From Deuterostichococcus epilithicus (Eukaryota > Chlorophyta > Trebouxiophyceae > Prasiolales > Stichococcaceae): a stretch of DNA of 64,000 nucleotides. The notes under the pieces are model-generated. The model was not told the DNA's origin and searched no databases. It worked only from the letters and a program-made list of their open reading frames with translations. The stretch lies in the NCBI GenBank assembly GCA_033439295.1, contig JAVTLE010000004.1, forward strand, positions 1,798,012 through 1,862,011, in the 5' to 3' direction. How positions within the stretch are numbered: the first letter of the stretch is position 1; every line of letters begins with the position of its first letter. Shown here piece after piece: positions 3,001 to 44,700 of this stretch. The translations under genes were made by a program, and so were the position numbers.

Positions 3001-6000
3001 GCTGCTTTGCGCTCTTCTTCTGCAGCTCAGGGTGTCGCAGCGTGATTAACGGGAGTACAGAAGGCCTTCTCCCAGGCGCAATGGTTGCCACGGCTCCTGC
3101 GCCAATGATTCTGCCCGCCGCGCGGCCTCGCCCCCTCTGACGCTGGCTCGCACTCTCCTGTGGACATTCAACACCGTCGATGTCGACGGCCAGCTGCACC
3201 GCCGCAGCTGTCGCTGCTGTTTTGATGCGGAACCCCGTTTTCTGGTTGGCCACTGCTGTTGTGTTCTTTAAGGTGACGGTCCACGCACTGCTGGTGGTGC
3301 ATTGCCGACACCTTGGCCCGGGCTGTGCGTGAACTGCCCTGCAGTTGCTTTGCGTCCCGGCATTACTGCACCAGAGAACGAGCTGTCGCTCTTTCGCACA
3401 TTGTCACCCGGATTCACTGCACCAAGGCAGCAGGCCAGGACCGGAGTTGGAGCAGCCGTCAGTGCAGCTGCCAGCCAGACGTTCCCGGAGGAAGCAGTGC
3501 TTCGGGGCAGTCCCACGAGCTCGCCGCGAGGCGCCCGGCTGGGGTATCGCATCGACACCTGGCCACCCACTGGCCATGCCAGGGCTATGCTGGGCCTTGT
3601 AGCAGATCAAATGCGCAGCTGACGCTGTTACAGAGCCGATCAGCGTGCGCCAGGACGGCAAAAACTCCACGGGAAGCACCTCTCTGCGCTGCGCAGCACA
3701 GTCCCGTCACATGCACGGCCTCGAGGGCGGCGCCTGGCATGAACCACGAGCCAAGTATGTCCAGAACCAGGTACAAGAACCAGACACTGCACGATCTGTG
3801 CGCTGCGCGGCACGATGCTCGTGTGCGGTCTCGCGGGCGGCGCCGCATTCAAGTAAGATCGGGATCTCATGCAAGACGTAGCACGTTGCGCTGCGCGCGG
3901 CAACCGGACGGCGCAGTCATGGTGCTGCGCTGTGAGCCAGCTTCCTCTGAGAGACCGGCCCCTGGGGTGGCTTGACGAACAGGCACTCTGCACACGGCAC
4001 GGCCTGTTGCGGTGGCTCGCGGGGAACCGCAGGCGTCCGAGACGCCCAACTTCGTTCACGACTGGACGAAAAAGAGCTCGAGAAGCAGCACCTCTTCGCG
4101 CTGTGCGGCGCGGTCCTCGCGCGCGGCCTCGCGGGCAGCGCCCACATCAGAGGCTTTCCGCGCAGCCTTCTCCTGCTTCGCCTGCCGCTGCCGCCGCAGG
4201 GACTCGCGCTCCTGCCTGCGTGCCCAAGCGAAGAAGAGGTCATCACAGAGTGTCAGATTCCGTGATCCCTGATATTCACAAATGCATCTGCTGTCGACAC
4301 CGCCTGCTACTGCTTCGCCTGCCGCTGCCGCCGCAGGAACTCGTGCTCCTGCCTGCGCATTCCGCGTGAACGAGAGGTCAAAGTCCCTAAACATGGAGGC
4401 TCACAAACGCATCTGCTATCGTCACCGCGTTTCCCGGCTTTGCATGCCGCTGCCGCCACCAGAGCTCCTGCCCGCGGTACAGAAAAATGAGTGCGCATCA
4501 CACAGCTCCTGGCAAGCTCCACGAGGCTTGCGGCTCATTCACTGCCCTGCTGTGCTGATGCACTGCGAGCTGTTGCTGCTGTGGGCCGCCTCGCGCCTGC
4601 TGTGCGTGCATGCATGCCGCAGCTGACGCCTCTTGAAGTGTACTTTGCTGTGGACGTCAGCACTCACTTGGTCTGATCGTCCCATTCGTCCTGGGCCCTT
4701 TTTGAACGCGGCGAGGCACCAATGCCGCCAAAGCTGCCGCCGCTGCCGAAACCGCCNNCAAAGCCTGCCCCGCCAACGCAGCCGCCAAAGCCGCCACCGT
4801 AGCCACCGCCTGGGTAGTTCCCACCTGGATCGCCACGGAAGCCGCCGCCGCCGCCAATGCCGCCGCCCATGCCGGCTGCATGTCAGTGATTGTGATGACG
4901 GTGAGCATGCAGCGCTTTTCTCACATAGCACATGAAGTGTTCCCTGCAAACGCAGATCACTGCCAGGTTTGGGGTGCGTGATATGCTGTTGATGAATGGA
5001 CAAATCTTAGTTACGAGCCGAGGCGACAACCCGCGGCAGGCCCGAGCTAGGGTGCTCACCGCCTATGGGGCCGCCGCCAAACATCATGAAGCCGCTGCGG
5101 CCGCCACCCAGGTTGACGGGCATGCCGCCCATGCGCTCCATCCTGCACGATGACATACGCTCTGCTTCATGCTGTGGGTTGGAGGAATCCGATCGGGCGC
5201 AAGCTGCACCTGTCGCACCCTCAGCCCGACGGGCCCTATGAAAAATCTTGTCATGTCCAGCAACATCGCAGCTGTATTCGACCTGCCGCTGTGTGGAAGT
5301 TGGAAGCACTCTCGACGAAGGAGCATTCGGAAACCCTAAACCCTCAATGCTTTCGCACATGAACATGAAAAAGTCCATGGCCTCGTCCATGGCGGCCTCG
5401 TAGTTGTCGTCATCAAACTCCTCGTCCTCGTCCTGGGAGCCGTCAGCGTCACGGCCCATGCGCCGCTGCGCTTCGAAGATCTTCTTGAACATCTCCGCCG
5501 CCTCGTGTTTGTTGTCCGGGTTCTTGTCTGGGTGCCTGAGTGGAGCGGCAGGTACCCGATTTGGTCATATGTTTGACGGACGGCGTTTTGCGGAGTGGCA
5601 TTTTGCGGAGGGGAATCCTCTGCCGCCTCCTCCTTCTTGTTCGTGTTCTCGTCCGGGTGCCTTTGTAAACGGAATATGGGGTTGCATTTGACAACTGCTG
5701 ACGATTCTTTGGACAACCCAACTCCAGAACACGTGCCTGCGCGCATGGGTAGCGGGTCGCAAGGCTTTGGGGCTGACTGGCATGGCAAATCCTCGTGGAT
5801 AAGCACACGGTGGTTTGAGGCGCTGACGAGCCCCCTGGCAGCCTGGAGAGGACATTCTCACAGCGCGGAGCCTGTTGGTAACCGTCTCCGCATGCTGCCA
5901 TGGCATCATCGTCCAGGTCTGCTATGAGCCCACAACAGACAAAAGTCAAGCCCCAGCTCATCGCTGCTGCTCGTGCTGGATGTTGGAAATGTGGCTGAGC

Positions 6001-7010: not shown

Positions 7011-10000
7011 ATGGCCCTCCGGCGAGCTACTGCCCGCCTGGGCTGCTCGCTGCGGTGTTCATCCCGTGCATTTGCCAGCGTGCCAGAGGAGGCGCCTTCG
7101 GTGCCTGCGAGGGAGCCGCAGATGCCGGATTTTGAGTGAGTCGGTGCATGCCTGGTTGACCTGCTGTTGGGTCAGATGCAGTCCCTGAAGTGAAGGACCA
7201 CAACACTGACTCGGCTCACCACATCGCAGCTACACACCGCCAGCGTACACAGGGCCCTCAAAGGAGGAGACCCTCCGCCTGCGGAAGCAGTACATGAGCC
7301 CAGGTATGCACTAGTGACTCTCCGACACCGGCAGAGCCACGCAGCGGCGTCCGCTGCATGATCGCCTGCAGCAGAGCATCAACCTGGCTCAGTGGTCTCT
7401 CATGCGAGTCCTAGAAGTGATTGTGGGAGTTTCCTAGATGACACATACTGCAGGGTCATGCGCGCATACCTGCGATGTCATGCATCACCTGCAGCAGAAT
7501 GGATGGTATTTGCTGATGTTTGTGGGCCTCGCACATTCATAGAGCACTGCCTGCAAGATGCTGTCAATGCAGCACGGGAAAATCGGGCTCCTGCGACGTG
7601 CGGCGCTCTGGTGGTCAGGATGAGCTTGGAGTATGAATCTACATTTTACGTCCGATCGTGTGATAGCAGAAGGTTCTGCCTGCAGCCATCTTTCACAACT
7701 TCAAGGACCCGGTCATGATCGTGGACGGCAAGATGCAATACCTGTTTGACGAGACGGGGCGCCGCTACCTGGATGTGAGTCCGCTGCCCTGCCCCTTGGA
7801 AGGCAATGGCCAGTGTGCGCGCACCTGCTTGCACGGGGCCATCGCCTCTGGTTGTATGCCAGCACGCTTGCTGCCACAATTCGGATCGGCTGTTGGGTTG
7901 GCACCATAGCGTATGGACTTGTCGAAATCGCTGCTGTCGGCCCGCCATCTGAGCCAGCCGTGACTCTGCTCGCAGGCTTTCGCGGGCATCGTCACGGTCA
8001 GCGTGGGGCACTGCCACCCCAAGGTAGGCTTGGTGGCCCTGCCGGAGCACGTTTCCCCGTCCAATGGTGGCCCAGTTTTGGTCCCCACCCACAGCTGAGG
8101 CAGGAGTGCCGCGAGCACTCCGCACTTGCGCTGTCCTGCACACATCGGCGGCGGCTTGCGCACATGCGGCGCTCAGCCCGCAGCGCGGCAGCAGTTGCAT
8201 GGGGCTTTTGGTTCCAGCGGCAGAGTCCAGCTGGTGCAAGCGTCACGCTGGGCACTATCTCCAGCACACCCCACGCTCGGTCTGGGCCGCGCCGTTGCAG
8301 CGTGCCAATGCCCCTGAACCCTGCGCCGTGCCGGTGACGCACACCGGCTGCATTTCAAACATGTTGAAACCCGCGCCTGCCCCCCAGGCGCGGGTGCCGG
8401 CGGCCATACCGCGCGAGGGGAAGATCGGCTGCAGCACCACCACTGCATCATCTGCAGATCGCAGCCTGTGACCCGGGCCAATGCCCCGATGCACAGGTGC
8501 TGGCTGCTATCCAGACGCGGTGGAACCGGCTGCGACACACCACCAATGTCTAAGTCTCCTCAAAATTCTGTACTAGGCTCCGGACGCAGGTGTTGGCGGC
8601 CGTCCAGGCGCAGGAAACCCTACATCCTGACCGGCTGCAGCACACCAAATGTGTGACACGGTCAGAGGAGCATCCCCTCGACAACTCGGTGCCCCCTGGG
8701 CGCAGGTGCTGAAAGCCATCCAGGCGCAGGAGAACCGGCTGCAGCACACCACCACCATCTACCTGAACAACGAGGTGGCAGAGTATGCAAAGGAGCTGAC
8801 CGACCGCATGCCCGGCGACCTGAAGGTGCGGACAACACGTCATTGTAAGAAACGAAAGCAGTGGTGGTTCTGCCTAGAGCTGCAAAGCGGGATGGAGCTG
8901 CATTGCGCACGAGGAAATAGGATCGGACACGCCGCAGGCGCTGGCGTCGACAGGGCCAGTGAGGCCAAGCACATGGCCGTTATGATGGCACAGCACGCAC
9001 CCCTCAGCGCTCCAAGCTGCTCTTCGCCCTCCGCTGCAGGTGGCCTACTTCGTCAACAGCGGCAGCGAGGCCAACGACATGGCCATCATGATGGCGCGGC
9101 TGTACACCGGAAACTACGACCTGATCGGCCTGCGGAATGCGTACCACGGGCTGTCCTCGGCCACTACGGGGCTGCTGGGGCACTCCACCTGGAAGCCCAA
9201 CACGCCAATGGTGCGCCATGGGCTGGCTGTCCCAGTCTCATCGATTCCGATGCCGGCCTGTGGCAGCAGCGAGCTGCGCAAGTCAATAATGACACGTCTA
9301 AATCGACACACAACAACACAGCCAAGGTGCTCCTGGACGTGCCAAAGATGTCTGGCGGAAGCTGCAGCGCTTAACGCGGCGATACTGCAATGGTTGCAAG
9401 CATGGATGACAAATGTTGAACCCTTGCACACGACAGCCTGTGACGCGGCGGCAGCCCCCGGAATTCGCAAGCCCTCTGCCTGGCGCTCCAGGGCTTTAGC
9501 GTGGACATGACGCATAGAAGCCGGCACTGCACCGCGGCGCATCGTCCGACGGCTCCAGAGATCCCACTACCTGTGTCATGACTTGCGTCTTGCTCTCCAG
9601 GGCTTTGGCGTGCACCATGCGCTCAACCCGGACCCGTACCGCGGCGCTTACGGCAACGACGGGCCCGCTTACGCGGCGGACGTTGCAGACCTGATTTCTG
9701 CCGCCACGCCGGGCGTCGTGGCCGGCTTCTTCCACGAGACCATCCAGGGCGTCGGCGGCGCGGTGCCGCTGGCGGATGGGTATCTTCCGGCGGTGTATGA
9801 GGTGAGGGCTGTGAGGCCACGACTGTGGCGGCGCGGTCCCGCTCGCAGACAGCCAAAAGCCCTGAATGGCGACACGGCCACTCGTTCGCGGGTGACAGCA
9901 TGCGGCGCAGGCGGTGAAGCAGGCAGGTGGCCGCACCACTGTGGACGAGTCGCACAAGTCTCTGAACAGCGAGAATTGGTGTCGTTCTTGGTGACCCGCA

Positions 10001-11934
10001 GATGGTGAAGGAGGCAGGCGGACTGAATATTGCGGACGAGGTGCAGTCCGGCTTCGGCCGCACCGGCAGCCATTACTGGGGCTTTGAGACCCAGGCGAGT
10101 CTCCTAAACCCTTGAATCCTGAAACACTGGGATCCTTGCCCCAGGCGCGTCTCACGGCAAGCTGCCCCTGCGTGTGAAGCTCCGGGCTGCAAAACGCTCA
10201 GGCTGCGGAACACAACTCTGGTGCAGTTCATGGACCGCCTGCATGCTGGATCACCGTCTAGGCAGTCATGTCAGCCGCCCCCGAGGTGCTGGTGCCGTCT
10301 CCTGCATCTACACTACAGCCAGCACAATTCTCGACATCGGCAGAGCTGATTCCCCTCTGTTCTCATGTGAGCCGAACCCGGTGCGCACAGGGCGTCATGC
10401 CCGACATCGTCACCATGGCCAAGGGCATCGGCAATGGACTGCCGCTGGCGGCGGTGGTCACGACACCCAAAATCGCAGCGGTGCTGGCCAAGAAGCTGCA
10501 CCTCAACACCTTTGGCGGCAACCCGGTGTGCTCCGCCGGCGGGCGCGCCGTGCTGCGCGCCATCGACGAGGACGGTCTGCAGGCCAACTCTGCGAAGGTG
10601 CGCTGCCGTGGGAAGAAAGGAGCGCACGAATCGATGCTCGAGAGTGAGGTTGCGAATACCCCATGGACGAGGAAGGCCCCAAAGTCTACTCTGCCAAAGA
10701 GCGGCATATCTCGACATCGATATTGCTGCTGGACAGGCCTGCAGCCAGGGTCGACGGCTGGCTTGCAATTGGGGGCTCCAGCAGGGCCTCGCCTGCGAGC
10801 TGTCGAGCGCCCGCTCTCACAGTCTCCACAACGAAAAGGGCACCTGACCTCAGGTCCCCTCAAATTCCTCAAACCCTGCCTGCAGGCGTGCACCAGGTGG
10901 ACAGGCTGCACGAGCTGCAGGCGCGGCCCAACACCGTCTGACCCCACCACCGCAACAAGGCCGGAAGATATTCCTTCCTGAACCCCTCGGGATTCCCCGC
11001 AGGTTGGCGTGCACCTGGCGGACCTGCTGCAGGGGCGGCAGTCGCAGTTGCTGCCCTACTTGCCCCTGCACTAAGTCCTGCACTATACACTGCAGGTGGG
11101 CGCGCACCTGGTGGAGCGGCTGCACGAGCTGCAGGCGCGGCACGACATCATCGGCGACGTGCGCGGCCGGGGCCTCATGCTGGGCCTCGAGCTCGTGCGC
11201 GACCGCGACACCAAGGTGGGCATCGGCCCCTCGTCACAGTCTCCAGCTCTCCTGGCCCCGGCATGCTCGACCTTGTTTTGCAACTGAGGAGCATGCGGGC
11301 GCAGAAACAGCAGTCACCATGGAGGAAGCTAACAGGGCGCGGCCATGCTCATCGGTGGGCCTCAGAACGCCTGACGATGGCCGGACACCCGGAGTCGGGA
11401 TCCCCTGCTGGGTACACGAGCCGGCAGGCGCGGAGGCGGCGGCGGTCCTGAATGAATCACAAAGCACTTGACCGTGCTCATCAGTGGGCCTCAGAACGCC
11501 TGGTCTGACACCTGGGATCCCCTGCCGGCACAGGAGCCGGCAGGCGCGGAGACGGCGGTGGTCATGGAGAAGATGAAGGACCGGGGCGTGCTCATCGGCA
11601 AGGGCGGCCTGCATGGCAACTGCTTCCGCATCAAGTGCGCGCCCGTGACACACCCGGAAGCGCGGCCAGCAGCCCTGAGACGTACACGAGCCTCTGGTGC
11701 TGCTGCCTGCGCCGTGGCGGCCGGCCTCGCCCCCTGCCCCTGTTGTGTCTACCCTTCGGGGTCTGAGGCTGCTGCAAGGCAGATCGCGCACTCCTGCAGA
11801 ACTCGCTGCGCGGGCTGCAAGCGCGTGCCGCCGATTGCATGCTGTTCCTCGAGTGCAGGCCGCCGATGTGCTTCGACCTGGATGACGCGGACTTCCTGAT
11901 CGACACGCTGGACGCTTCGCTGGCCGAACTCTGA
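7011..11934 (+). CDS. AGT2: alanine:glyoxylate aminotransferase 2 (class III, PLP-dependent), mitochondrial type
   Basis: Expected to transfer the amino group of alanine to glyoxylate, giving glycine and pyruvate (photorespiratory/glycolate metabolism). Exons: 7011-7135, 7230-7303, 7686-7774, 7976-8023, 8706-8825, 9040-9210, 9601-9801, 10002-10094, 10391-10597, 11096-11215, 11534-11634, 11859-11934; they sum to 1425 nt, 474 residues, the usual AGT2 length. The N-terminus ([20 protein letters not shown]) is Arg-rich and lacks acidic residues, like a mitochondrial presequence. Class III marks: [33 protein letters not shown], and TMAKGIGNG holding the PLP-binding Lys. The protein ends [24 protein letters not shown]. 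The intron after 10094 starts with GC (GC-AG), required by phase. Its introns hold at least nine decayed copies of exon edges, listed separately. Identification is firm; targeting is inferred. Confidence 0.95.
8388..8656 (+). repeat. three tandem ghost copies of the AGT2 exon 5 start
   Basis: The acceptor plus first ~60 nt of the exon at 8706 is copied three times upstream in the intron, at about 8388-8450, 8491-8554 and 8583-8656, spaced ~90-120 nt. Shared blocks include CAGGTGCTG, ATCCAG and CCGGCTGCAGCACACC. The middle copy is ~75-80% identical by eye. Two copies run into stops (TAA, TGA) just after the shared block, so they are not usable exons. Confidence 0.85.
8934..9001 (+). repeat. 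ghost copy of the AGT2 exon 6 start
   Basis: The stretch resembles the acceptor and first ~65 nt of the exon at 9040: GCAG, then CGGCAGCGAGGCCAACGACA replaced by a similar block around AGTGAGGCCAAGCACATGGC, then ATGATGGC. It lies just upstream of the true exon in the same intron. Confidence 0.75.
9485..9552 (+). repeat. ghost copy of the AGT2 exon 7 start
   Basis: CTCCAGGGCTTTAGCGTGGA matches the acceptor and first bases of the true exon at 9601 (CTCCAGGGCTTTGGCGTGCA). Similarity continues through ACCGCGGCGC. The copy sits ~115 nt upstream. Confidence 0.8.
10103..10111 (+). repeat. telomere-type motif after the AGT2 GC donor
   Basis: CCTAAACCC begins 9 nt after the exon end at 10094. Confidence 0.7.
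10884..11050 (+). repeat. two ghost copies of the AGT2 exon 10 start
   Basis: Copies of the acceptor and start of the exon at 11096 lie at about 10884-10940 and 11003-11050. The first keeps GCTGCACGAGCTGCAGGCGC exactly and then ends in TGA. The second keeps GGCGTGCACCTGGCGGAC, compared with GGCGCGCACCTGGTGGAG in the exon. Confidence 0.85.
11288..11500 (+). repeat. two ghost copies of the AGT2 exon 11 start
   Basis: The exon at 11534 (GAGCCGGCAGGCGCGGAGAC) is echoed at about 11288-11372 and 11420-11500. The second copy keeps GAGCCGGCAGGCGCGGAGGC. Both keep a TGCTCATC block ~60 nt in. The two ghosts share GTGGGCCTCAGAACGCCTG, which the exon lacks, so one ghost was copied from the other or from an older common unit. 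Confidence 0.85.
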
Positions 11935-12973: not shown

Positions 12974-15400
12974 CCCAGTACTGCAGCATGGGCACGACGA
13001 CGGCGATGAAGAGCAGCGTCAGCACGATGGGCCCGGTGACGCCCTTCTTCTCTGCCGTCTCGCCCTTGGTCTTGTACGTGCGCACGCGCTCGGCATCGCG
13101 CTTCGCCGGGGGCCCCGGATCCGCCTGCCCCGTCAGCTTCGCCTGCGGCAGGCATTTGATCATTGACAGCAAGGCGGTGGCGGTGACGGTGACGGTGGCA
13201 CCCGCAGGGACAGTCCAGAGGGCAGCCCACAGGACAGCCCAGGGTGACACGGCGATGGGGCGCCGCGGGCAGCTCGAGGCCCCCCCTCTGGGAGGCGGCA
13301 TGGGGTACTGGGGGCACCCATCAGGGCAGCCAAGCACAGAGTTCCCGGTGCAGGCATGCTTCATTCAGCTCGGCAGCGTCCCGCCGCGCTGACAGCAGCC
13401 AAAGTTCGACGCTTCCCAGGGGCTGCGCCCCCGTCATGCAGGCTGACTCGCGGCCGGTCACTCGGTTTATCCAGTTTATCGATCTTGTCAAGACATAGGT
13501 CGCACCTCAATGCGCTTGATGGAGGATGTCACAAGCTCGTTGAACTTGGCCTCCTCGCCCAGAATGGGGATGTTGTCGCTGATGATGGAGTCCACCAGCT
13601 CGTCGCCCACCGTCTGGGGGGGGGAGCAGCATCACAGCCTGGAGTCGGTTTCGGTAACCTAATGCTCCAGGGTGGGCAGCCAGCCGGTGACGACACCCGA
13701 GGTGACACGAGTCCACCAGCTCGTCGCCCACCGACTGCACATGACTGTGTTGGACCCTTTTGATGCTCCAGCGAGTGCGCTCCCATAGCTTGGCCACAAG
13801 TCGACGATGCGGTGGGGCACAGAGGGGCGCCTGCTTGCTGGTCCCCCGCCCCCCCAAACGAATGCAGGCAAGGCGTCGTCCAGGGCTAGGCAGCCGCCGG
13901 CATGCGAGCACTCTTCCTGGCTCCACGCCAGCCGTGGGCTCGGTTCCCCTCACGTGCATCTGGCTGACGCGGCTCCGCACGAAGGGGAAGCGGGCCGTCA
14001 GTGGCCGCGGCCACCGCCGGCACATGCAGACACTGCATCGCAGGACACCATGTCAGGCAAGCGCTGGTTCAAGCGCTGTTTCTGAAAGCACGGCGCGCAC
14101 CCGCATGAACTTTGGGCCGCCGGACAGCGCGCCGTCCTTTGCGGTGGTGACCACCAGCAGCAGGCCCTTGTTGTTGCCCTCCTCCGCGGTGGGGTACCAC
14201 CTGTGGAAACAAAAGAATGTATTGGTTACAGGTAGGGGAAAAACCTGGACTTTGTTTGCCCTCCCCCGAGGTGGGGTACCACCTGTGGGGACGAGGCCAG
14301 GGAGACTGTGGAAGGGGCGCCAAGATCTTGTCATGTGCTGCACACCGGGGGTGCAGACCGCTGAGGTGCCGCTGTGCTGCTGTGCTGTGTTCACGGCGGT
14401 GCTGAGTCCCCATGCGCGACGGGCCACTGCGCAAGCCAGGAGGGGCCAGAGCTCGCTAGACTCCGGTGGTGGTGTGGGTCCGAGGAGGGCAGAACCGGGG
14501 CGCACTTCTCGACGATTTTGTCGGCAAAGCCGAAGGCGTCGTTCTCGAACTCCAGCTTCCGGACGGTGACCACCTGCAGCCTGTACCCGGTGTCGATCTG
14601 CGCGCACGGCACAACAGGATTCATCAAGTCTCGATCTAGCTTCCAGAGTCTGGGACGTCAGAGTCTGAGACGTCAGCATCGGAATGTTTCCCCCCTCTAT
14701 GGCTGCCGGCCCCTGCAGATTGCAGGCCTGCGCCTTGCGCTTTGCAGCTGTGTGCATGCGCCGACACACACAGGCCAAGGGAGGCCTCCTCTCCCTGCAA
14801 TCCGTTCGCTCGTGACGCCCCTGCCTGGCAGAGCAGCAGGCAACAGGAAGATAGTCATCCGTTCAGCACCACCCAGCCTACCAGGCCCCGCCACAAACCC
14901 TGCAAAAAACCCACCTCAAAGCGGGTAAGCTCGTCATTGACGCCCTTCTTCGTTGTGCGGTTCATGACGCCGGCGTCGTCGATGACGTGCTGCGAGCTGG
15001 GCCGCGCCTCCTGCATAATGTCCAGCTCGTTGGCGAGCGCCGCGCCGGAGACGCTGCCGGCCGTCAGCACCGCCGCGGCCGCGGCCTGCGCGCAGCACGG
15101 TTGCTGATGATGATCCAGGGCCCCTGCACAGGCCGCAAGAGGTAGGGCACAGCTGCCTCCGGGGACACGACAGAGGCTTCCTGTGGATGCGCGCGTTGTA
15201 AGCGCTGGCATCGAGGGATGTGCCAAGCCTGCGGATATGTCTGCTGCTCCCGCTATGTTGCGGCTGTACTGCCCTGTGCAGGGATTCCGTGCACGGCAGC
15301 ATGTTCCTATGCGTCCGTGTTCTGCACGGCGCAGCGCGTGCAGAACAAGCTGACTCACCGCTGCCGCCTTGCTGCGGACGGTGTCGAAGAACGATGGCTC
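12974..15400 (-). CDS. TPM-domain thylakoid protein (TLP18.3 / Psb32 family), first exon unresolved
   Basis: Members of this family sit at the thylakoid membrane facing the lumen and help photosystem II repair. Exons: 15400-15359 (transit part, EPSFFDTVRSKAAA), 15085-14915, 14597-14506, 14200-14101, 13613-13506, 13142-12974, in phase. The TPM domain reads HVIDDAGVMNRTTKKGVNDE, VVTVRKLEFENDAFGFADKI, EKWYPTAEEGNNKGLLLVVT, GALSGGPKFM, then VGDELVDSIISDNIPILGEE. One C-terminal helix follows (PIVLTLLFIAVVVPMLQYW), as in plant TLP18.3. The Ala-rich stretch ending SGAALANE looks like a lumen signal. The ATG exon is not settled; one candidate is at 15721 (MQRACSASLSRSGRRCFP). A short last exon below 12974 is possible. 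The family call is firm, the ends are not. Confidence 0.85.
13709..13733 (-). repeat. ghost copy of a TPM exon start, 25 of 25 bases identical
   Basis: Bases 13709-13733 repeat 13588-13612 exactly. The source is the first 25 nt of the exon 13613-13506 (coding VGDELVDS), and the copy lies ~120 nt upstream of it in gene sense. It is the freshest boundary duplication in the window. Confidence 0.9.
14243..14295 (-). repeat. ghost copy of the TPM exon 14200-14101 start with its acceptor
   Basis: GGTGGGGTACCACCTGTGG occurs at the true acceptor (14190-14208) and again about 85 nt upstream in gene sense, flanked on the exon side by a similar TTGTTTGCCCTCC block. Acceptor and exon start were copied together. 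Confidence 0.85.
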
Positions 15401-25625: not shown

Positions 25626-28600
25626 ATGGTGAAGAAGAAGGTGAGCCGGGCTTCCTATTCCTGCGGCCTGCGCACGGATCCCGCACGGTTGTGCAGTGGC
25701 TGAAAGCAGTGCACATGCGCTGCCGCTGCCGTGCACCACTACGGGCTCACGCCGCGATCCCAGAAGTACATATCCTCACGGGGCTTCACTCCAACAGCTG
25801 TGTATCCTCCATGCTGGTGATCCCAGCTGCGCCAGGAACGGCATGGCCGCGATGCCCTGGCGTCGGCAGCCCATCGCATGCCGCTGCCCTTTGACGGCCC
25901 GCAAGGTGGCCGGCAACCCCTGACGCAAGAATCCGACACGCTCATCCGTGTGCGCATTGACTGCGTCCTTGCGACGTGCAGGGCGGCCGGGACATGAACC
26001 CGGCGGACGCGTTCCGCAAGGTGCAGCGCCAGAAGGAGATCGCGCGGAACAAGAAGGAGCGCCAGTTCCAGCGCGATGCCAGCAAGCTCAAGTCGGACCC
26101 GGACGAGATCAAGGGCCAGCTGCAGGAGGTAGGCAGCGTGCCATGATGCAGACCTGCGCTGGTCAGGCGGCCGCCTCCGAGGCGCTACTTGTGGCTGCAT
26201 TGCGCCATGGCCTGCGCCGTTGACCGCAGAGCTGCGCATTCAGCGCATCCGTGGCTTGTTGCAGGTGCTGGAGATGCAGGACGACGGTAAGTACAACATG
26301 AGCCTGAAGCTGAAGAAGCGCGCGCTGCAAGGTGCGGCGGCAGTTTTGTGTTTCGACTGCGCTCATGCGTGGGCCTGCATGCTGACGGTGCTGAGGGCAG
26401 AAGCGGACCATATGACCATATATACGCCTTTGTCGGTCCACTGAAGTGGCGCACGGATCCAGTGCACTAAAATATTCGCGTGTGCGCCGCCGCAGGGGCG
26501 CTGGATGCATCTGTGCGGAAGCGCAAGGTACTTGCACTACTGCTTTTTCCTCACTTCAAAGCAGCCAACTTCATTGGCGGCCAGCGCATGCGGGGCACAG
26601 CGCATGGATCACACGTGGCAGAGGAAGACTCTTGCCTGTCCTGTAATATCCCCATAGCTCACTGGGAGAAGGCTGCATCCGGCGGCGCCTGCCTACGAGT
26701 TTGCGGCAACGACCATGCTGTCATGTGTGCAACCTTCGTGAACGTTGCACGAATTGGAACGAGTAAGGTGCAGCGCATGTGGAGCATGGCAACGCGGCGG
26801 CGACTGCCACTACATGGTGACAACCGTGTAAGCCCTGCGTTGTAGGAGGAGGCAGTGCGTGCGGAGTACGGCGATGCAGCTGCGCCAGCTTTTGCGGCGC
26901 CGCACGGCCACGGGGTCCCAGAGCAGCGCCCGGAGGAATCCGTGTACTACCACCCCACCCTGAACCCCACCGGCACCCCGCCGCCAGGCAAGCCGCAGCG
27001 CTACCGCACGTCCGCGATGATCGAGGCGGCGCCCTCAGGTGTGCGGTCCCCTGCCGGCTTTCCTCTGGCACGCTGGCTGCTGAGAACAGAAACTGCCTCT
27101 CGCTCTGGAGGAACTGGAAGAACCGCAGCTGTGTGCGGCTCGGCGCACCGCGGCGGAGCGTGTGTTCCGCTTGGCAGCACCACGCTTGACATTTGCTGGA
27201 GGCGGGGAGGCGCCGCAGCACCTAGCATGGCCACCAAATGCGGCAGCAGTATCGGACCCCTGCAGCTTGTGCAAGCAGGCTACACTGCCAGCAGGCTCCT
27301 CGGCTGCTGCCTGTTCTGGACAGGAACCGAAGCATCACCCTCTGTGTCACCCGGCTCATCTCGTGTGCGCGCAGGCACGTCGGCGGTGCCGCTGCCAAAG
27401 CCGCCACCGCTGCCAAAGGGCCCAGCGCCGCCGTGGCTCAGGCCGCCGCCGGCCGACGGCAGCGCACAGGCGCCGCTGCCGCCGCCCGCGGGNGCGCCGC
27501 CGGGCTCGGCGCCCATGCTGCCGCCGCCGCTGTTCCCGCCAGGCGCGCACCCGCCTGTTGGCATTATCATCGATTTGTTTCAGCGATTCATGAGTGCTGG
27601 ATATATATGAGTGCTGGAGCGGGATGCATGTCGCAGGTCAAGTCCGCAACGCGCCGGCTGCGGCTCTCCCGCATTGAGGTCTGCTATCGGACTGCCCTGT
27701 GTGGCCCAGCTGCCGCCCCGGGCGGAACGTGTGCACGTGTCTCACGCCCTTCGATGCACCGACAGAAGACCTCAACCAACTGAACTGCACTGTTCTCTTC
27801 TAATTGTGCAGGCGGGCCAGGGGCGGTGCTGCCGCCGCCGGACGGCCCGCCTCCGGAGCGGCCGCTGCTGCCGCCGCCAGACGAGCCGCCGCCAGGTGCC
27901 GCTAAACCCTAAACTTTGAAATCCACACCACCTCACCACCCAACGACACCACGCTTACTCGACGCATCTCGAACCCTCTGAGGCGCCCTCGGGCACGTCG
28001 TGCCTGCGCTCGCTGAGCAGGCTTGCAATGTTTTGATGTCGCGCCGCTGCTTGCCGAGTGCGACCCTGCCGGTCACAATGCTCCCTGAAGCATCCCAAGA
28101 CTCTGGGAGAGTGCGACTCGCCAGTGAGGAGCACATCCCCCTGCTCGCAAGTTGTTGCCGTGCATCCAGCTTCCTCACTGCGCCGCAGGTCTAGCAGCCC
28201 TGGGTGGGCGGCTGCCGCCGCCGCCGGGGCCGCCGCCCGGGATGATGATGCTGCCCCCGCCGATGGGACCGCCGCCGGGCATGCTGCCGCCGCCCGGCTT
28301 CCCGCCTCCCGGCTTCCCGCCGCCCGGATTCCCGCCGTCAGGTGAGACCGTCGCACCGGACTGATGTTGCTGGGGATCCGCCGCTGAACAACCTGATTCT
28401 GGAGCGCGCCGATGCAGCGGGGCGCCCCAACCACGATCCGGGCTTGATCACGGACTGCTCTTGCCCCCATTGAGGTTTTCGAAGATTTGGCGAGACCCGC
28501 CCCAACTGCTGCCCGTGCGCACATTCCCGGCCATCCCTCGTGCACGCCATTTGACATGCAAGCTGGAGAGCCACGCCCGTGCTGCACCACCCGCAGGCGC

Positions 28601-29391: not shown

Positions 29392-30347
29392 TTGGCACGG
29401 GTGCTGCGGCGACACTGCAGCGCACACACAGCGGCAGCAGTGCCTGCGGCAGCGGTGCTGGCAGAGCGCGTGCGGCGCAGCGCGCGCGGCGCACGCGGCG
29501 CATATCGGGTCCGCAGCATGCCTCTCCCCCCCGTTCATTGGCAGCTTCCAGAACGGAAGGGCCTTACAACTTGCCGAAGTATGTTTACTTGTCAGCCTGT
29601 CGTGTGAGGTTCAGCAGCATGTCAGCAGACAAGCGATGTGAGTGTGAGAGCATGACCGATTGCACTGCGTCTAGTGGATGCTGAAGAAAGCTAGAACGAT
29701 ACCCAAGTCATGGCGGTGGTGACAAAGCAGGACTGGTTCACTACACGTCTCTGCCACCTCTTGGAGATTACTCTGGTATCCCCAGCCGCCGTGCTCAGAG
29801 AGGACAGTTGCATCCCGCACCACGGCCTAGCTGTGTCTGCAGCATGCTCAGCTTGCGAGTCAGCTCAGCAGGCATTGCTAAATAACAATGCGTGCCCTTT
29901 GCTGGGTCGGTGTTTCAGATCAGCTGGTGCGAACTTCAAGACCAGTGTACGTCTGGGCTTGCGGAGTCAGCATTGCAATATTGCCGCTGCAATAAATCAG
30001 ATACAGGCCAAGCTTGCACCAGCGCAGAACATTGAAGAACAGGTAGGCGTGAGTGGCTCCACCGCTGCATGCTGGTCAAGCGACGCTGTAGCTGGCAAGG
30101 CGGAAAGACAAGGTTTGCGCAAGCCGCAGCGGCAGCAACCTGCTAGCACTGCGACTCGTTCTACAGATGGGCAGCTCCTGGGCACTGCTACTGCCGACTG
30201 ACAGCCGTGCCGTGCACATCTCTGCTAGCAGCCGCCCGGACTCTGGTTTCAGCCGCCGCCTCGCACAGCTGCGCTGTCCGGTCGAAGCGCTGGTAGGTTC
30301 CGCGCCTAGACGCCACATGTCGGATGTTGGACGCCGCTGCCGACGCC
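29392..30347. other. convergent 3' region between WBP11 and CWF19L2
   Basis: About 0.95 kb, mostly 3' UTR and spacer. It holds the ghost copy at 30266-30297 described separately. A minus-strand TGTAA lies at 29563-29567. No gene is recognised. Confidence 0.4.
30266..30297 (-). repeat. ghost copy of part of the last CWF19L2 exon
   Basis: This 32-nt stretch matches 30351-30382, the last coding bases of the gene, at 26 of 32 positions by eye. It sits 85 nt downstream of the stop in gene sense, so boundary duplication also reaches the 3' UTR. Confidence 0.75.
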
Positions 30348-33300
30348 TCAAAGCTGCGCCGTCCAGTCGAAAGGCTCGTAGGCGCGCATGAAGTCGGCCG
30401 CCCGCTTTCGTTGCAGGGCCTCCGGCTCCGCCTTGGCGGTCGCCTGTTGGAATGAACTTTGGAACGGATTTCAGCAGCCACTTTGCCGTTGATGCAGGTG
30501 GTGAAGGTCCGATTATTGCCGGACATCGCTGCCGGTGACCGAATTGAGATTGGGCCCGAAGCCACTCAACACGCCACCCGCATGTGCACTGCAGGCAACA
30601 CTGCTGAAGTGTCTGAGGCAGCATGACGCAGCGCGCCGAGCGGCAGTGGCCACCACAGTGCTTGAAGATGCAAGTGATTGCATGCAATGCTGCGCCATGC
30701 GGGATGTGAAGCTGCTGTGCGGTAGTGTGCGAGCCGGTCGGAGTGCCGGCACCACTCGCATCCAGAGGCAGCTGGGCATGCACTTCCGTTCCGACAACAA
30801 CCGCATGGATCATGTTTATTATATGCCATTTTCACCGGTGCGCCGTTTTCACTAGTATTGCTGAAAATGCCGCACCTTGCCAACGTTGGCGTCCAGGCCC
30901 AGCAGCCCTGCGAGGATGCTGCGTCCGAATGTGGCGTCCCACCTCGTCTCGTCGTCGATGACGTGCACGAAGCCGGCTGCAGGCAGCACAGAATGCTTCT
31001 GAGCACGAGGCCACGAAGGCTGTGCTGGAGTGGTGCCGCAGAGGCGTCTGCATACTCCTGCAGACCTCTGGCCGCCGCGGGGAGCAGCGAGCAACAGAAT
31101 CTTCCAGCAGCGAGCCCCAGACCGTGGGGCTTGCTCCAGTGCAGCATCGGTTGTACACATGACCCTGGCGACACACGCAGACAGGCCACCCCGCTGCCTG
31201 CAGCAGCAATCTGCCGCACCAGGAAGGCTCGAGCAGAGGGCAGTTCTGCTGGGAGATCAATGTTTGGTTTCTGAGTTCTCTGAACAGCCGCGGGACGCAC
31301 CGGACAGGCCGAACTCGACGTGGAAGTAGGGGAAGTTGGGGGGGATGCTGCCGCGCAGGCCCTTGGCGCGCGTGTCGATCATGCGCTTGGCGTGGTGCTG
31401 GGACCACTCACTCTCTGCGTCGTCGATGCCCTGTGAATCCACAGCGGCAAGCTGGGGGCTGCTCTTCGAGTGCGCCAGCAGGCTCCTGGGCAGTCGAGCG
31501 GCACGCCATGCACATGTGGGTGAAGCGAGGCTGCACCCAGGGTGGACGGCAGCTGTTGACTCGAGGCGGTCTCAGCTGGGAAGGAAGCATTCCGTGTGAC
31601 TCAAACAAGGTTTCCTACTTGTGTGTGTCCACATCTCAACTTGTAGATCGGCTGACCTTTTTGAAGTACAGCGGCGCCTTGGCAAACGCCTTGGCCGGAA
31701 GCGGCACCGCCTCAATGCACGCGTGGCTGCGCGCGTCCTCCAGCCGCACCGCCGTCTCCATGAACACCACGTCCCGGTCCTGCGGGAACAAGTCCGGTTT
31801 GGCTGTATGAATTTGTCCCGATCCGGATGCAGCGATCACAGCATCTCGGCATGGGTCCAGATGCTCGCCTTCACGGAGGCCATATTGTGCATTTCGAGCG
31901 ATGGGGTCTCGAGCTGTCGAGCCAGCGCAGGGGCGGGAGCACGCATCGCCTGGTTCACAGGGGGCCATGTGCATGACATGAGCGGGACGCCACCTGCTGC
32001 AGGAACATGCGGTGTACTACAGGCGTTCAGCTTTCATGCTTGAGCTTGCTCGACTAGACACGTGATCTCAAGTTCCAGGACATGAGCGCAGCGCGACCCC
32101 AGAGGCTGGGAGGTTGCAGCAAAGCGGCGTGCCTGCTGCATGAACATCTGGAGCAGCGACTTCTTGAAGTTGCGCAGCTCCGTCCAGGCGGCCTCGTCGG
32201 TGCGGCGGCCCGACGCCACATGCTCCGCCGGCACGAGGCAGACATGGCCCTCCGCCAGGGAGCCCCTGCAGCGTGTGCAGAGAAACAGTCTTCACCAGTC
32301 TTCAGGAATGCCGGCGCATCAGACAGGTGCATTTAGTCGCGCCGCCGCCCATGGCGACGTGGCCCGCCATCCCGCCATCAATGGTGGGATGCATCATGGC
32401 GGACGGGTGGGAGGCGAGGCGAGGCGAGGCGAGGGGCGATGGGCGGGGAGGTCTCTGGTCGGTGTGTGGAGAGGGCTGCCCGGCCGCGTCAGAATTGCGA
32501 TCCCAATAACGGCAGGACCAATGCAAGACAGAGGCCCGTATCACCCAGGCACTCTCAAGTCTGACTTGGCATGCCGCGAACAGCAGAACAGCGCTGCTGC
32601 CGCCAGCCGGCGCGATGCCGCTGCCGTCGGCGCTGCCTAGCAGGGCCGAGCCCGGGTGAAGTGTGCCGCCTCCAGCTTGGCAGCCCCAACTGCTGACCCC
32701 CAGGACCATGTCACAAACACCTGAGAGGTGAGAAGTGTTTCCGAGAGGGCCTGACGCTGTGCGGGTCGGGGGAGAAAGGGAGACGCTGAGTGAAGAATCG
32801 CACTTGTATGACATCATGAGGTAGGACACTTGACACTTTGTGGGTCGGGAGGAGAGCAGAGTTGAGCAAGCGCACTTGGGCGGCAGCATCAGGTAGGTCG
32901 CCTGGCCGATGGCGAGGGTCAGGTGCCGCGGCCGCCTCGCCGAGGCGATGCACAGCGTGCACGCGTCCAGGCCCCTGTTCATGCGCTTGGCGTCTGCGAT
33001 TGCAGCAGACCGCGCCCGCTTCGCCTGCTGCTCCTGCGGCGCATGGATGCAGACAGGGGTTGCAGACAGGAACTTTTAGAAGGGCGAGGGGTAGTCGCAC
33101 CCCACTGCTCGCCTTGTCGCCAACAGGACTGACGGATCCCAACATGCAGTCAACACACTGCAAAGCGAACAGGACACGTGCATGTTTGCCCCACCTGATC
33201 GCCCTTTTTGCGCTCGTACATGTCGATGCCCCGGTCGAAGTCGTACTCGTCGTCCGCGTTCAGGTCGTCGGCCCTGAAGCGCGCCTTCTTCATGATGTTG

Positions 33301-36300
33301 CCCGCCAGCGCGGCGTCCATGTCCGCCGCGCCCTGGAGACAGGTTGCAGACATATTGCCGCATTGCATGGCTCAGGCATCGAGCTGTTGTCACAGAACGA
33401 GAACCAGATGAGATCCGCCTCGCGCCCGATGCTCTTGTCCAGCGTGGCAGCCATGGCCGCCGCCTGCTGCAGAGCTTCAGATTGCTCAGCCTTCGCATGT
33501 CAGGTTGACCCAAGGCCGGCGCGACGTTGCGCTTCCCCGCGCCTGGCACCTATGAGCAACGCCGAGCAGCGCTTCCTTGCTCACGCATGCATCACTTTCT
33601 GCCTTTGCTCGCACGGTCAACCATACCGGAACACCTGCAGCACGTCCGCACCACCCAGCGCTTGCACAAGCCGGCTGGCGCCAAGCGCTTGAGAAGGAAT
33701 GCCTCCGGCGCCTGTATTCACCTCGTGCTTCTGCCGCTTGACGAGCGTCTGCAGGTCGGGGTTTGCGTCGTCGTCCGCCGTCCAGCGCTCGCGTTTGCCG
33801 TCCGCGTCGTAGCGCTGGATGCGCTTCTGCTTGCGGCCTGCGGGAGCATGACGCGCCAGGCTGCATCAGTCATCGTGCTTGGTGTTCAGAGATTGGCAGG
33901 CGGGGGAGGGGGCGCAGGTGCACAGGTATTGGGGTTCAGGTTTCACGGCCGTGCACATCGCCATGCACGCAAGAGGTCGGACGCTAAGGTGCTGATGCCA
34001 GTTCATTTTAAGTTGCACTCCGCCGCTCACGTGCGCTGTGGCAGCTGCTGCGTGCGGCAGCGCTTTGCCGATGCATTGGTGGCAGCAACCAATGCTACCA
34101 GGCCTGCGGCCTGTCGGCCAGCGGCGGCGGTTCCTCCCACCTGGAGGCAGGGCGCCCTCGCCGGCGGCCTCCCGCCCAAAGGCGCCCGGCACGGCACGCC
34201 CTGCGGCGTCCACCTCCGGCAGTACCTCCACCTGCCTCCTGCCGCCTGCTGTCCCGCCGGCGGCAGCAGCGGCCGGCGGCGCCTTGCCCTGTGCGCCAAT
34301 GGGAGGGCGGCATCACGTGTCAGCTGACCAGAATGGTCAGCAGATGATGGCCAGCTGCCTCGACAGGGCCACCTGCGGTACTGGGACTGGGTCGACAAGT
34401 TCCTCGACCTGAAAGGGTGAACGTGTGTTGTGACGTGAGACAAAATGCTGTGCTCTCCCAGAGCCTGGTGCTCAGTGCCTGTGCACCTCAAAGCCTGATT
34501 CCCCACTACCATGACGCCAAGCTGTTTGGAGAGGTCTACTGCCCACTGCAGGGCGCTGCAAGGGACGCACCAGCAGGCGAGCTCGCAGGGCGGCCGCCAC
34601 CGACAGGTTGCCGCCGGCGCCGCCGGCTGCGGCTGCCAAGGGCGCGGCCGCTGTCCGCGCCGCGGCAGCGGCGGCGGGCGGCGCGGTCGCAGCCGACGAG
34701 GACTGCGGCGCCGCCGCTGGCGCCCGGGCCGTGGGCTCCGGTATGGTGGTCGGCGGTGACGGGCTCCGGCTGCCGGGCTCCGGAGACCTGACGGACATAG
34801 AAAGTCTAAACAGCTGGTATCCATGAGAAACTGCTCAATGATCGCCTGAGACAATGTGCCACCTGGGAGTTCGTTTGCCTTTGTGACACCTTGAGCCTGA
34901 AGGCGGCCCGAAGGTGTTTCAGTAACGGGGTTTCAGCGCCCAAGGTCGTGAGTGGAAGAGCAAGCGTGTGAGGGGCGACCCAACAGCCGTGTGGATGGCG
35001 ATTCACTACATCGCTAGCGCCCAGGAACAAGCACGAATGGGCAGTGCGTCTCGGCGCCCAGGCCAGCTTTGCTCCGGGCGCCAGCGCCTGCAGTGCGATT
35101 TGCCATGCACACCGCTGCCGCAGGGCCGCTGAGGCCAAACATCCCCACGCTGGGGAGGTGCGGCAAAAAGGCTCGCGCTCCAATACACACAGGGTTAGGC
35201 TTGCCCACGACTCCAATGACGTTGGCTGCACATGAAGACTGGCTGTTGACGTTCAAGCACTGGGTCTGGCAAGACGAACTGCATGGCTGGTGCGAGGAGG
35301 GAACGGAAAGGGCGGCGACAAACCCAGCAGGAGAGGCATCCTTGGACCCCCGCTGCTGCTGCTGCTGCTGCTGCTGCTGCGCAAACTGCTCCATGAAGCT
35401 GCCGTCACCAGCGTAGGCATTGAGGCTGCCGGCCACCGCACGCAGCGCATCCGAGTCTGCCTGCGCCACATGACGCAACACAGGCTCACAGAATGGGCGC
35501 GGTGGCCGCGCAGCGGACTTGAGCGTGCAATCTCACAGGAGGTTGTGCCAGTACGCCGCCGCACATACTGGACCGTCCTCGGCAGGCACCAGCTTCTATT
35601 GGCTGCTGAAGAGCAGTGCTGTTGTAGAAAATGCTGCGACACCAGGCCGTTGATTCAGAGTCCGGCAGAAAGGGCACCTTGCTTCCGAGTGGGTCCCGGT
35701 GGGGGCGGCGCCGGCCGCCATCTGCTTCCTGCTTCCGATGCGGCTCCCTGCGGGGATCGCCCGCATTGCTGGCCCGGCCGCCGTTCCTGCCAGCGCCGGC
35801 GGCGACGTTCCTGCCCGAGCCTCTGCCGTCCTGCTCCGAGCCCCTGCCATGAGCGTCGCCGCCGACACCGGCGCCAAAGCTGATGCGCTCGCCGCCCCGC
35901 CGTGGCGGCTCCGACTGCATGCCGCAGCCGGTCGGTTCCCTGCTGCCGACGTCCCTGCCATCTCGACTGCCGCCTCCAGCTCTCGGCCCGCCGCCGCTGC
36001 CGTTGTCGCCTCCGTCGCCACCGCCCCGCCCGCCGCTGGCTTCCGCGCTGCCGCTGCCGCCGACCCCGCCAGTGCCGTCGCGGCCGCGCCGGCTCAAGGC
36101 GCTGCCGAAGCCTGAGCGTTCTGTTGGCCGCCGCATCTGTGGCCGCTCGGCCTTCAGCTCCTGGAGGTAGCCAGCCGCCTCGGGCCGCGCCTGCCTGCCA
36201 CTTCCGGCTTCCCTGTCCCCGCCGCCATCCCTGCCGCTGCCGCCGCCGCCGCCCTCCCGTGATGGCCGCCAGTCCTCGCCGCTGCCGGTGGCATCGCGCC

Positions 36301-41735: not shown

Positions 41736-44700
41736 ATGCAGGCCGACGCGGTCATGCATGAGGAAGAAGCGCCTGGATCGATCGTGCCAGCGCCTGTGGT
41801 CGCGGCGGCGGTGTCAGAGCCTTTGGAGGTGATCTCGCAACGCAATATTCACACCCATCGAGGGTGGCCAAAACTGCAGCACAGCAGTTGTGATCCTCCA
41901 ATAGGGGGCCTGACCTGTGAGATCGCTTGTGCAGGTGACGAGGGTCAGCTGCGGCAGCTCCCACTCCCTAGCTGTCCTGAGTAAGGCCCCTGCAATTCTC
42001 GGGCTGTCTGTCGTCCAGCTCGTCTCATGCCTGTTCACAGCATTTGAGCATGTAAGCACCTGGTCGAGGAAGTGTGCACGTGGCCGCCAACGCCGATCAG
42101 GCCTGGCAGCTGTTGATCACCGGCACTGCCGCGCAGGCTGTGACCTGCTGGTGGCATGGGGTCGGGGAGAGGACGGCCAGCTAGGTGGGTCCCATCCCAG
42201 GTTATCTCCCCCTTCCAACCCACGCGACCTGCCCGTCTCAAAGCGAGGACGCTGGCGACGCTTGTGGCGGGCCGCCAACGTCCGCCTTTGCCGCCGATGC
42301 ATTGCTGGCGGCCCGCTTGCTGGGTGGTGTTCAGCCAGTAGTCATGCCCGAATGCATGCGCCGCCGCAGCACAGCAGCCGCGTCCGGAAAGCTGCACTCA
42401 AACCACTTATCATTGCGACCGGCAGCCCGAGGCGCAGGTGTCGGGCAATACTGGCGCCAGGTGTGGTACCCGGGCGCGGCGCCCACTGGCACGTGAAACA
42501 CCTCGCAACACCAGGCGTCACAGCCGTGCTGCGCGTGCGCAGGTCTGGGCGATGCGGAGGACCGACTGGCGCCGACGAGCGTGGCAGCGTTGGCGGGGCA
42601 GGGCGTCTCCGCCATTGCATGCGGCGCAGAGTACACGCTCGCGATCTCCCGCGCCCAGCAGCGCGTCTTCAGCTGGGGCTGGTGCGTGGAAACACAATCG
42701 GAAAGGTTCTCAGGCTGCAGCCTCGGGGCCGAAAGGGCCTTGACTGCCGGCGGCCCGCTTTGCGCTGCACTCGCACTCGGGGCAAGCGGCAGTGGGGTGC
42801 GGCCGGCAAGGGCGATGGCGCCGCCACAAGGGGGAGCGTCCCGCCTGTGCCTGCCGGGCCTGGCACAACCTGCACCGGGGGGTCCCACTCCAACACACTG
42901 CTGCTGCCGTGTGCAGGGGCGACTTTGGGCGGCTGGGGCACGGCGACTGCGGCGACGTGTTCCTGCCCAAGCCCATCAACGGGCTGAACGACATAAAGGT
43001 CATCGCCTGCGCGTGCGGCGACACGCACTCGCTGTGTGTTGCCACGGACGGCGCGCTGTATGCCTTTGGCCGCAACTCCAACGGGCAGCTGGGCAACGGC
43101 ACGAGCGAGGACGCGACGCAGCCGCAGCAAGTGGCCGCACTGCAGGTGGGGCCAAGACAGTTTCCGGCTCCACGCAGGCTGAAGCGAGGGGCTGTGGCTT
43201 GCTGCACGGCGTCAGGTGTGGCTCAGCATCACAGCCGGTAGGCGCAGCGGACAGCAGGCGGTGCAGGCTGTGGCGTCGCGCCGGCAGGCACAGAGCTTGG
43301 GCCGCACCTCGGAATGGGACTAGTAACAGATACCAGCGGCGGCTCACCAGCTGTGCAGCAGCTGGCCGGCAGTGGGACGCAGCCTATAGGTGCCCTTCCG
43401 TGCAGATGACAGCCATGGCAGCGATGCTGCGCAGCCGTGATGGCAGTGATGCCACACATTCCAATGATGACCCACCCCGCGTGAATTGTGATGCGCGCAG
43501 GGCCACAAAGTCACATCTGTGTCATGCGGAGCAGAGCATTCGGTCGTATCGACCGACACCGGCGAGGTGAGACTGTGCAATTGCAGCACAAGACCCTCTG
43601 GGTAGCACCGTGGCCGTGATCTGGTGTCTGCGAGCTGCATGCCTCGTGAGCGCCGCACCATCAGCGTCACTATAAAGGCAGTCAACCTTACAAAAGCTTG
43701 AATGCCCGGCGCTTTGAGTGTTATACGGTGGATGCGAGGGCGGTAAATGAGAAGCGCTTGTGAACGGCACCATTTGTATGACTTTATCCTCAACCTCTAC
43801 CCAACCTGCTGCGCAGGTTTATGCCTGGGGGTGGGGGCGCTACGGCAACGTCGGCGACGGCCAGCGGGTCGACAGGTGCGCCGGCGCATGCGCTGTAACA
43901 TTGCAGGAGGTTCATTTGTCAGCTCAATCGAGTTCCGACCGGCAAGAGTCTGGAGGATGAGCGGCTGCAGCAGTGGCAGGCTTGGGTGCAGCGGCGGCCG
44001 CCTGTTGCGCTTCCTGTGGCAGGGCAGTGCATCGCATCGCCTGTGCCGCTGCTGCTGAGTTGCGCTAGGCTGGGCGTGCCATGCGATTTAGCATGCGCCG
44101 CCTCTGCCTGCAGCATCGCTTCGTGCGGGCTGCATTGCAAGCTGCAGTACATCGGCGGGGAAACCCCCCAAGCCGCGGCGCCCCCCTCCCCGCGCAGGCT
44201 GACGCCCACGCGGGCGGCGGTGCCGGAGGGGCGGCACATCGTGTCGGTCGCGTCTGGGTGGCGCCACTCGCTGGCGCTGGATGCGGAGGGCCGCATCTTC
44301 TCCTGGGGCTGGGGCAGCTACGGGCAGCTGGGCCACGGCCTGCGCCAGTGCGTCGCTTTTCCGTTTCGGCCTGTCTTTCCTCATCTCTCCTGCAAAAGGC
44401 CTGCTAGAGTCGATGCACGGCGAGGGGCGGCCCTTCTCTCTGGACTGGGTCAGCCCGCTGCGTGCCACGCTGGCGGTCAAGCACTGGAGCGGAAGCAGGA
44501 AGCGGGTGTGCCCTGCTGCCCAGGCAGCGTGAGGCGCCGCCGCTGCAGGCGGAGGCAGCCGGAGGGACGGCGCCTTTGCACTACTCCCTGACGGTCGGTG
44601 ACTGTCAGTGCAGGCTTCCCCTGAGCATGGTCCAACCGCATCAGGCACGGGGGAAGCAGAACAAGGGACGAGGGGCGGAGCGGCAGGCGGAGGCTCTTGC

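Follow-up and report, generated by a model that had tools for sequence, protein, structure and literature searches.

Decayed direct copies of exon edges in adjacent introns of a 64-kb algal window, possibly left by repeated short duplications across exon borders

Genes and gene models of the window

The window, the whole 64-kb stretch of DNA analysed here, has a GC content of 62.7% and intron-containing genes, and appears to be nuclear DNA of a green alga. Domain searches identify DnaJ, class-III aminotransferase, F-box, Wbp11, CwfJ, RCC1, chlorophyll a/b-binding and WD40 domains, and the product of the UVR8 gene matches plant UVR8 structures at an E value of about 1e-109. A Pfam scan of the LRR/MSL and PLAC8 proteins gave no match; LRR, MSL, TPM and PLAC8 are tentative working labels. 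Rfam and tRNA scans of the window were empty. No relative of the UVR8 and CWF19L2 proteins was found among viral contigs, and comparison of the UVR8 protein with genome contigs returned one match, bacterial and distant. The record contains seven isolated runs of unresolved bases (4757-4758, 17040, 17065, 17173, 27493, 29196 and 58084), and a proline-rich tandem repeat with a 15-nt unit lies inside the WBP11-like coding sequence (28272-28337).

The exon-intron model was trained on the window itself. The TPM gene was added afterwards, and AGT2 exons 1-3 and 8, DNAJ exon 7 and the FN3-like exon at 2030-2174 were corrected by eye. The final set comprises 12 genes and 106 introns. An earlier set of 96 introns, giving 192 adjacent exon-intron pairs, served for the pairwise controls, and from it the intron linking the LRR and MSL models was dropped before counting. 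Two introns apparently start with GC instead of GT, at the donors of AGT2 exon 8 (10094) and DNAJ exon 7 (2863), as judged by protein continuity and by the copies described below.

The gene labelled AGT2 (7012-11934) has its best structure match in ethanolamine-phosphate phospho-lyase (6tor, E 8.7e-103), which belongs to the same fold family. The label is kept as a provisional enzyme name. The protein can be aligned to a solved homologue over residues 52-476 of 479, and at the junctions relevant to the copies it shows no insertion of more than 2 residues relative to solved homologues. The gene models other than AGT2 are less certain.

Copies of exon edges in AGT2

Exon 5 of AGT2 (8706-8825, plus strand; own gene model) lies where the protein is colinear with solved class-III aminotransferase-fold homologues. 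Upstream of it are three decayed direct copies of its acceptor and first ~50 nt, about 93-116 nt apart, much as the original prediction had described. The oldest (8378-8443) lies 312 nt upstream and is 75% identical to 8690-8755, and the second (8491-8545), 209 nt upstream and preceded by CAG, is 80% identical to 8700-8754. The nearest (8582-8647), 104-116 nt upstream, is 71% identical to 8698-8751; it carries a small internal insertion and is scored as two pieces among the 27 matches counted below.

The same arrangement is found on the plus strand before five further exons of this gene. Single copies represent the acceptor edges of exon 6 (8945-8989, 82%, shift 106 nt), exon 7 (9480-9540, 76% to 9589-9647, shift 109 nt) and exon 8 (9906-9949, 75% to 9997-10040, shift 91 nt). 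Exon 10 is preceded by two copies, the nearest at 11003-11045 (79%, shift 93 nt) and the second at 10885-10933 (88%, shift 214 nt), and exon 11 likewise by two, at 11418-11482 (78%) and 11289-11355 (72%, shift 245 nt). For the nearest copy of exon 11 the spacer is also homologous, and 11343-11482 aligns with 11472-11596 over 140 nt at 75%. A weaker match (9827-9849, plus strand, 87%, S 31, E 7e-5) corresponds to the donor side of exon 7, 25 nt inside the edge.

Copies in the other genes

In the DNAJ/FN3 gene, on the minus strand, both edges of exon 6 are represented. The copy of its acceptor edge at 4302-4352 (92%) has a homologous spacer, so that 4165-4346 aligns with 4302-4471 over 183 nt at 71%, and a second copy lies at 4434-4457 (88%, shift 262 nt); copies of its donor edge occupy the downstream intron at 3800-3844 (82%) and 3680-3734 (75%). 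The donor edge of exon 7 recurs at 2590-2653 (78%), a copy whose end coincides with the donor, and at 2740-2798. Further acceptor-edge copies belong to exon 3 (5618-5660, 79%, shift 125 nt), to the FN3-like exon 2030-2174 (2246-2305, 77%, shift 131 nt) and to exon 11 (249-362), for which there is one copy at 466-495 (87%) and an older one at 744-795 (79%).

The TPM gene (minus strand) contains a copy of the edge of exon 13506-13613 at 13709-13733 that is identical at 25 of 25 positions (shift 121 nt), and a copy of the edge of exon 14101-14200 at 14256-14282 (93%, shift 82 nt); CAG precedes both. At a lower intron penalty the gene finder called the former (13717-13734) as an exon. On the plus strand, UVR8 holds copies of the edge of exon 7 at 44666-44705 (78%) and 44531-44556 (88%). 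The edge of exon 8 is copied at 45503-45559 (91% over 57 nt, shift 127 nt), where the acceptor now reads CAA, and in an older copy at 45236-45261 (96% over 26 nt), whose 3' spacer is homologous to the spacer 5' of the real acceptor (p = 0.0007). In LRR, also on the plus strand, the donor edge of exon 4 recurs in the downstream intron at 57244-57283 (82%) and 57386-57414 (83%).

CWF19L2 (minus strand) contains a copy of the edge of exon 4 at 37358-37382 (92%, shift 172 nt) and a weaker one of the edge of exon 11 at 33439-33463 (84%, shift 134 nt, E 2e-4). A further copy lies in its 3' flank (30252-30297, 80% to 30339-30382) and consists of the last ~35 coding bases and the stop-codon region, decayed and displaced 87 nt downstream. 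In the gene model used, this end of the coding sequence has no splice site, and so the duplication is not confined to splice junctions.

Extent, direction and edge anchoring

With the corrected models and a threshold of S at least 30 (all E < 1e-3), 28 matches between an exon and its adjacent intron are found in 18 of the 106 introns, with exon parts of 15-65 nt (median 42 nt). One of them, in WD40 (15 nt, 87 nt from the edge), is probably due to chance. The remaining 27 fall in 17 introns of six genes: DNAJ/FN3, AGT2, CWF19L2, UVR8, LRR and TPM. At this threshold the MSL, F-box, PLAC8 and WBP11 genes have no match, and LHC has only a 17-nt match at S 29, below the cut-off. The pattern is therefore present in 6 of 12 genes, short of the nine or more of thirteen originally claimed. 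The description of the introns as filled with copies was likewise too strong, since the matches account for 1,110 of the 37,228 intronic bases overall and for 1,095 of 8,704 within the 17 introns.

Within the window, the similarity stands out against both non-adjacent exons and shuffled introns. At E < 1e-4, 16 of 192 adjacent exon-intron pairs are similar, compared with none of 950 non-adjacent pairs from the same gene, none of 192 reverse-complement pairs and 13 of 9130 pairs from different genes. Above 42.1 bits, the same-gene hits comprise six proximal direct ones, with no proximal inverted and no distal hit, whereas the maximum reached in 20 shuffles of the introns is 26.3 bits. Two tests are independent of the gene models. 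Ungapped 40-nt windows with at least 31 matches, 30-3000 nt apart, yield 25 direct segments and no inverted one, and no segment in any of four Markov-simulated sequences; three of the 25 are exon-exon, and the other 22 pair an exon edge with its copy or join two intronic stretches of an array. Self-comparison of the whole window at E < 1e-3 gives 17 direct and 4 inverted hits. Three hits join different genes and none represents a repeated intron family, so the window gives no sign of introner elements, which are similar intron sequences inserted in many genes.

The matched exon part begins no more than 11 nt from the edge in 23 of the 28 matches (3.9 expected) and no more than 1 nt from it in 14. 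Such anchoring would follow from duplicated blocks that reach across the border, those internal to the coding sequence being removed by selection. Acceptor edges are affected more often than donor edges, 16 against 3 (p 0.004), a count that includes the acceptor edges of AGT2 exons 7 and 8, which emerge only when flanking bases are added, and leaves out LHC and the weak donor match in AGT2 intron 7; with the weak match the figures are 16 against 4 (p 0.012). The duplication reading does not account for this excess. Copy-bearing introns are longer than the others (median 492 vs 256 nt, p 1.4e-5), although a match is also more likely to occur in a longer intron. Confidence is high that the repeats exist and are anchored at exon edges; the pattern is well supported and unusual.

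Spacing and spacers

In 15 of the 16 arrays the acceptor-edge copy closest to the real edge is 82-137 nt away from it; in the remaining array the distance is 172 nt. In some arrays the shifts are roughly regular (312/209/104-116, 262/137, 245/116 and 214/93 nt), and in others they are irregular (442/134, 402/127 and 237/98 nt). Homology usually extends 0-9 nt into the intron, with 12 and 16 nt in two AGT2 copies and 62 nt in one.

The spacers were tested over full intervals in 33 comparisons. At p < 0.01 three of the 16 arrays have homologous spacers (DNAJ intron 5, AGT2 intron 10 and UVR8 intron 7), and at p < 0.05 five have; by the criterion used in the simulations, S at least 31, the count is 2 of 16, with a third array at 30. 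All 18 exon-derived pairs within arrays are similar at p < 0.01, compared with 4 of 27 spacer pairs. Twelve of the 18 pair two intronic copies, with neither side coding, and the contrast arises partly by construction, because the exon-derived stretches were chosen for matching one exon. Tandem Repeats Finder reports no row with an array unit, its longest period being 30. Noncoding-only direct repeats up to 600 nt apart are absent at S of at least 31; lower cut-offs give one at S of at least 28, and four direct and no inverted repeats at S of at least 26 within 300 nt.

The sequences that flank the copies bear on two further candidates. The end of the previous exon precedes none of 24 copies (p < 0.05), which rules out derivation from spliced mRNA. 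The stretch after the copies resembles the continuation of the exon in 1 of 24 cases (p < 0.05), and tandem duplication of exonic sequence, in which the duplicated sequence makes up a new intron (the AGGT model of Rogers), is rejected as well.

Decay and splicing

The 27 matches contain 173 substitutions in 1087 aligned sites, together with 10 gap events. The copies look noncoding in character. Of 145 changed codons 100 are nonsynonymous and two are stops, and mismatch rates at codon positions 1, 2 and 3 are 0.125, 0.156 and 0.197 over the same matches, a mild third-position excess (p 0.03). The synonymous share of the changed codons is 0.31, against an expectation of 0.19 for drift confined to the copy, an elevation that silent changes in the exon, or later refreshing of the copy, could explain.

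The AG is still present at many copies. It has been lost from the corresponding position of the nearest copy in DNAJ intron 7, AGT2 intron 10 and UVR8 intron 7. On a matrix trained on real acceptors, the real acceptor scores above the nearest copy in 14 of 16 arrays. Inclusion of any of the 16 nearest acceptor copies in the mRNA would shift the frame or introduce a stop. The cell must then consistently choose the site next to the exon, which is what would be expected under exon definition.

Origin of the copies

What has to be explained is a set of direct, local and edge-anchored copies with noncoding decay and characteristic spacing, in which the spacers are homologous in three arrays. The best reading, held with moderate confidence and put slightly on the probable side, is that short tandem duplications have recurred across exon borders while splicing has kept to the exon-proximal site. 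Each duplication, mostly of ~80-140 nt, would span the border between a coding exon and noncoding sequence, usually at a 3' splice site, and the spliceosome would go on using the copy of the site next to the exon, so that the protein remains unchanged. The copy so displaced, made up of 25-65 nt of exon edge and a short piece of intron with the AG, would stay in the intron and decay; the intron would become one unit longer with each event, and repetition would produce arrays. The exon-derived parts may outlast the spacers because the adjoining intact exon serves as a conserved reference, and that exon might also act as a template from which copies are refreshed by local gene conversion. Growth by repeated duplication across a border, as originally proposed, is retained as the best reading, to which the homologous spacers of the three arrays and the greater length of the introns lend support. 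Its plain random form fits badly with spacer homology in 2 of 16 arrays and with the lack of noncoding-only repeats at S of at least 31 within 600 nt.

That plain form, in which tandem duplications arise anywhere in genes, decay neutrally and are seen only at edges since the exon is a slow-changing reference, would produce the edge anchoring, the direct orientation and the mostly nonsynonymous changes. It was simulated with a simple substitution and indel model on present-day introns, either with any exon share allowed (four settings) or with an exon part no longer than the unit less 50 nt, a limit that raises both the expected detection of spacers and the ratio of interior to border repeats. 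Spacer homology is expected in 40-51% of detected cases without the limit and in 61-81% with it, compared with the 2 of 16 arrays observed by the same score. Interior duplications should be about as detectable as border ones when any exon share is allowed (ratio 0.89-1.02 per event), and in the limited simulation 2.6-3.3 interior repeats should be detected for every border repeat; none is observed at S of at least 31. In the unlimited simulation 44-46% of the detected units have an exon part of more than 66 nt, whereas in all 28 observed matches it is at most 65 nt. Random duplication with neutral decay alone does not account for all the data, and as a full explanation it is distinctly unlikely. 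The results for spacers and noncoding repeats point either to renewal of the exon-derived parts from the intact exon or to copying confined to the edge.

Copying limited to the edge, in which 25-65 nt of exon edge and the AG enter the adjoining intron without the intron sequence beside them, could proceed by template switching, by staggered-nick repair with filler, or by an RNA-linked step that halts at the splice site. It fits the short reach of homology into the intron (mostly 0-9 nt), the spacers, which do not reach p < 0.01 for homology in 13 of the 16 arrays and in 23 of the 27 comparisons, and the absence of noncoding-only direct repeats within 600 nt at S of at least 31. However, it sits poorly with the homologous spacers of three arrays, with the absence of the previous exon's end before all 24 copies, and with the copy that crosses the CWF19L2 stop codon, where a copying step based on splicing is not needed; a new downstream acceptor would, moreover, require its own branch point from unrelated spacer sequence. 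On balance it is rather unlikely. Selection that maintains exon-like copies as decoys, tuning splicing or intron retention, would agree with the better preservation of exon-derived parts than of spacers, even between two intronic copies, with the survival of the AG at many copies and with the somewhat high synonymous share. The preponderance of nonsynonymous changes, the three nearest copies that have lost their AG and the weaker acceptors of the copies in 14 of 16 arrays speak against such a function, which is very unlikely. An origin in misassembly or chance similarity has the seven runs of unresolved bases in its favour, yet misassembly rarely makes copies that differ from their exons at 173 of 1087 sites, and shuffled introns stay below the six proximal hits (at most 26.3 bits vs more than 42.1 bits); its probability is close to negligible.

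Comparison with known systems

Within-gene duplications are known to reshape exon-intron structure. The original prediction linked the layout to no named intron family, but a named phenomenon of this kind exists: exon stuttering, or sequence stuttering, described mostly for genes of chicken dot chromosomes (Hron et al., 2026, PMC12954441). There, partial copies of exon edges lie with their splice sites in adjacent introns; more than 90% have their source no further than 1 nt from the border, the exon parts have a median length of 36 nt, arrays have a median of 4 copies, and 190 of 5,572 dot-chromosome introns qualify at a threshold of 42.1 bits. The stuttered introns are also dense in repeats detected by Tandem Repeats Finder, and show intron-only stuttering and length differences between birds (PMC12954441).

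The two systems share direct partial copies of exon edges with a splice site in the adjacent intron, a GC-rich context and a similar exon part (median 36 nt in chicken, 42 nt in the algal window). At 42.1 bits, 5 of the 106 algal introns qualify when only same-gene introns are counted, against the 190 of 5,572 in chicken. Apart from the host, a plant-lineage alga as opposed to bird dot chromosomes, the differences available for comparison concern the form of the arrays. Border anchoring is looser in the alga, with 14 of 28 matches within 1 nt and 23 of 28 within 11 nt, and its arrays hold one to three decayed, older copies. By contrast with the dense arrays and intron-only stuttering of chicken, Tandem Repeats Finder detects no array unit in the algal window, and noncoding-only direct repeats at S of at least 31 within 600 nt number zero. 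Exon stuttering is the closest known phenomenon; the algal setting and form are new, and the phenomenon itself was already named in 2026. A bolder reading, tentative and somewhat unlikely, is that of an edge-aware mode of intron growth, in which coding edges would be specifically copied or refreshed while the intervening intron sequence is lost, and which would have arisen convergently in a plant-lineage alga and on bird dot chromosomes.

In the potato RdRp gene one tandem-duplicated block runs from the 3' portion of an intron into the 5' portion of the exon that follows (PMC4974935), a single event of the same elementary step as the algal copies. In potato a new intron results through a cryptic donor, whereas the algal copies stay inside existing introns (17 of 106). 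Among the top-ranked results of a literature search no report of the exon-edge copy pattern in an alga was found, and the available parts of the papers on Auxenochlorella (PMC12636532) and Coccomyxa (PMC3446292) and of a review of intron gain (PMC3443670) do not describe it. Short local duplications recognised through interrupted transposable elements may likewise include exons and splice sites; unlike the algal copies, they are not found as exon-edge arrays.

Implications

Intron growth is rarely visible. At the exon borders considered here the neighbouring exon provides a slow-changing reference, so that single events can be recognised and roughly aged. The copies also bear on the choice of splice sites, as any of the 16 nearest acceptor copies, if used, would break the frame or meet a stop, and copies as good as that in TPM could mislead annotation. 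If the pattern extended genome-wide in an alga, exon stuttering would not be a peculiarity of birds, and its cause, whether high GC content, replication trouble or template-switching repair, would become open to study in a simple organism.
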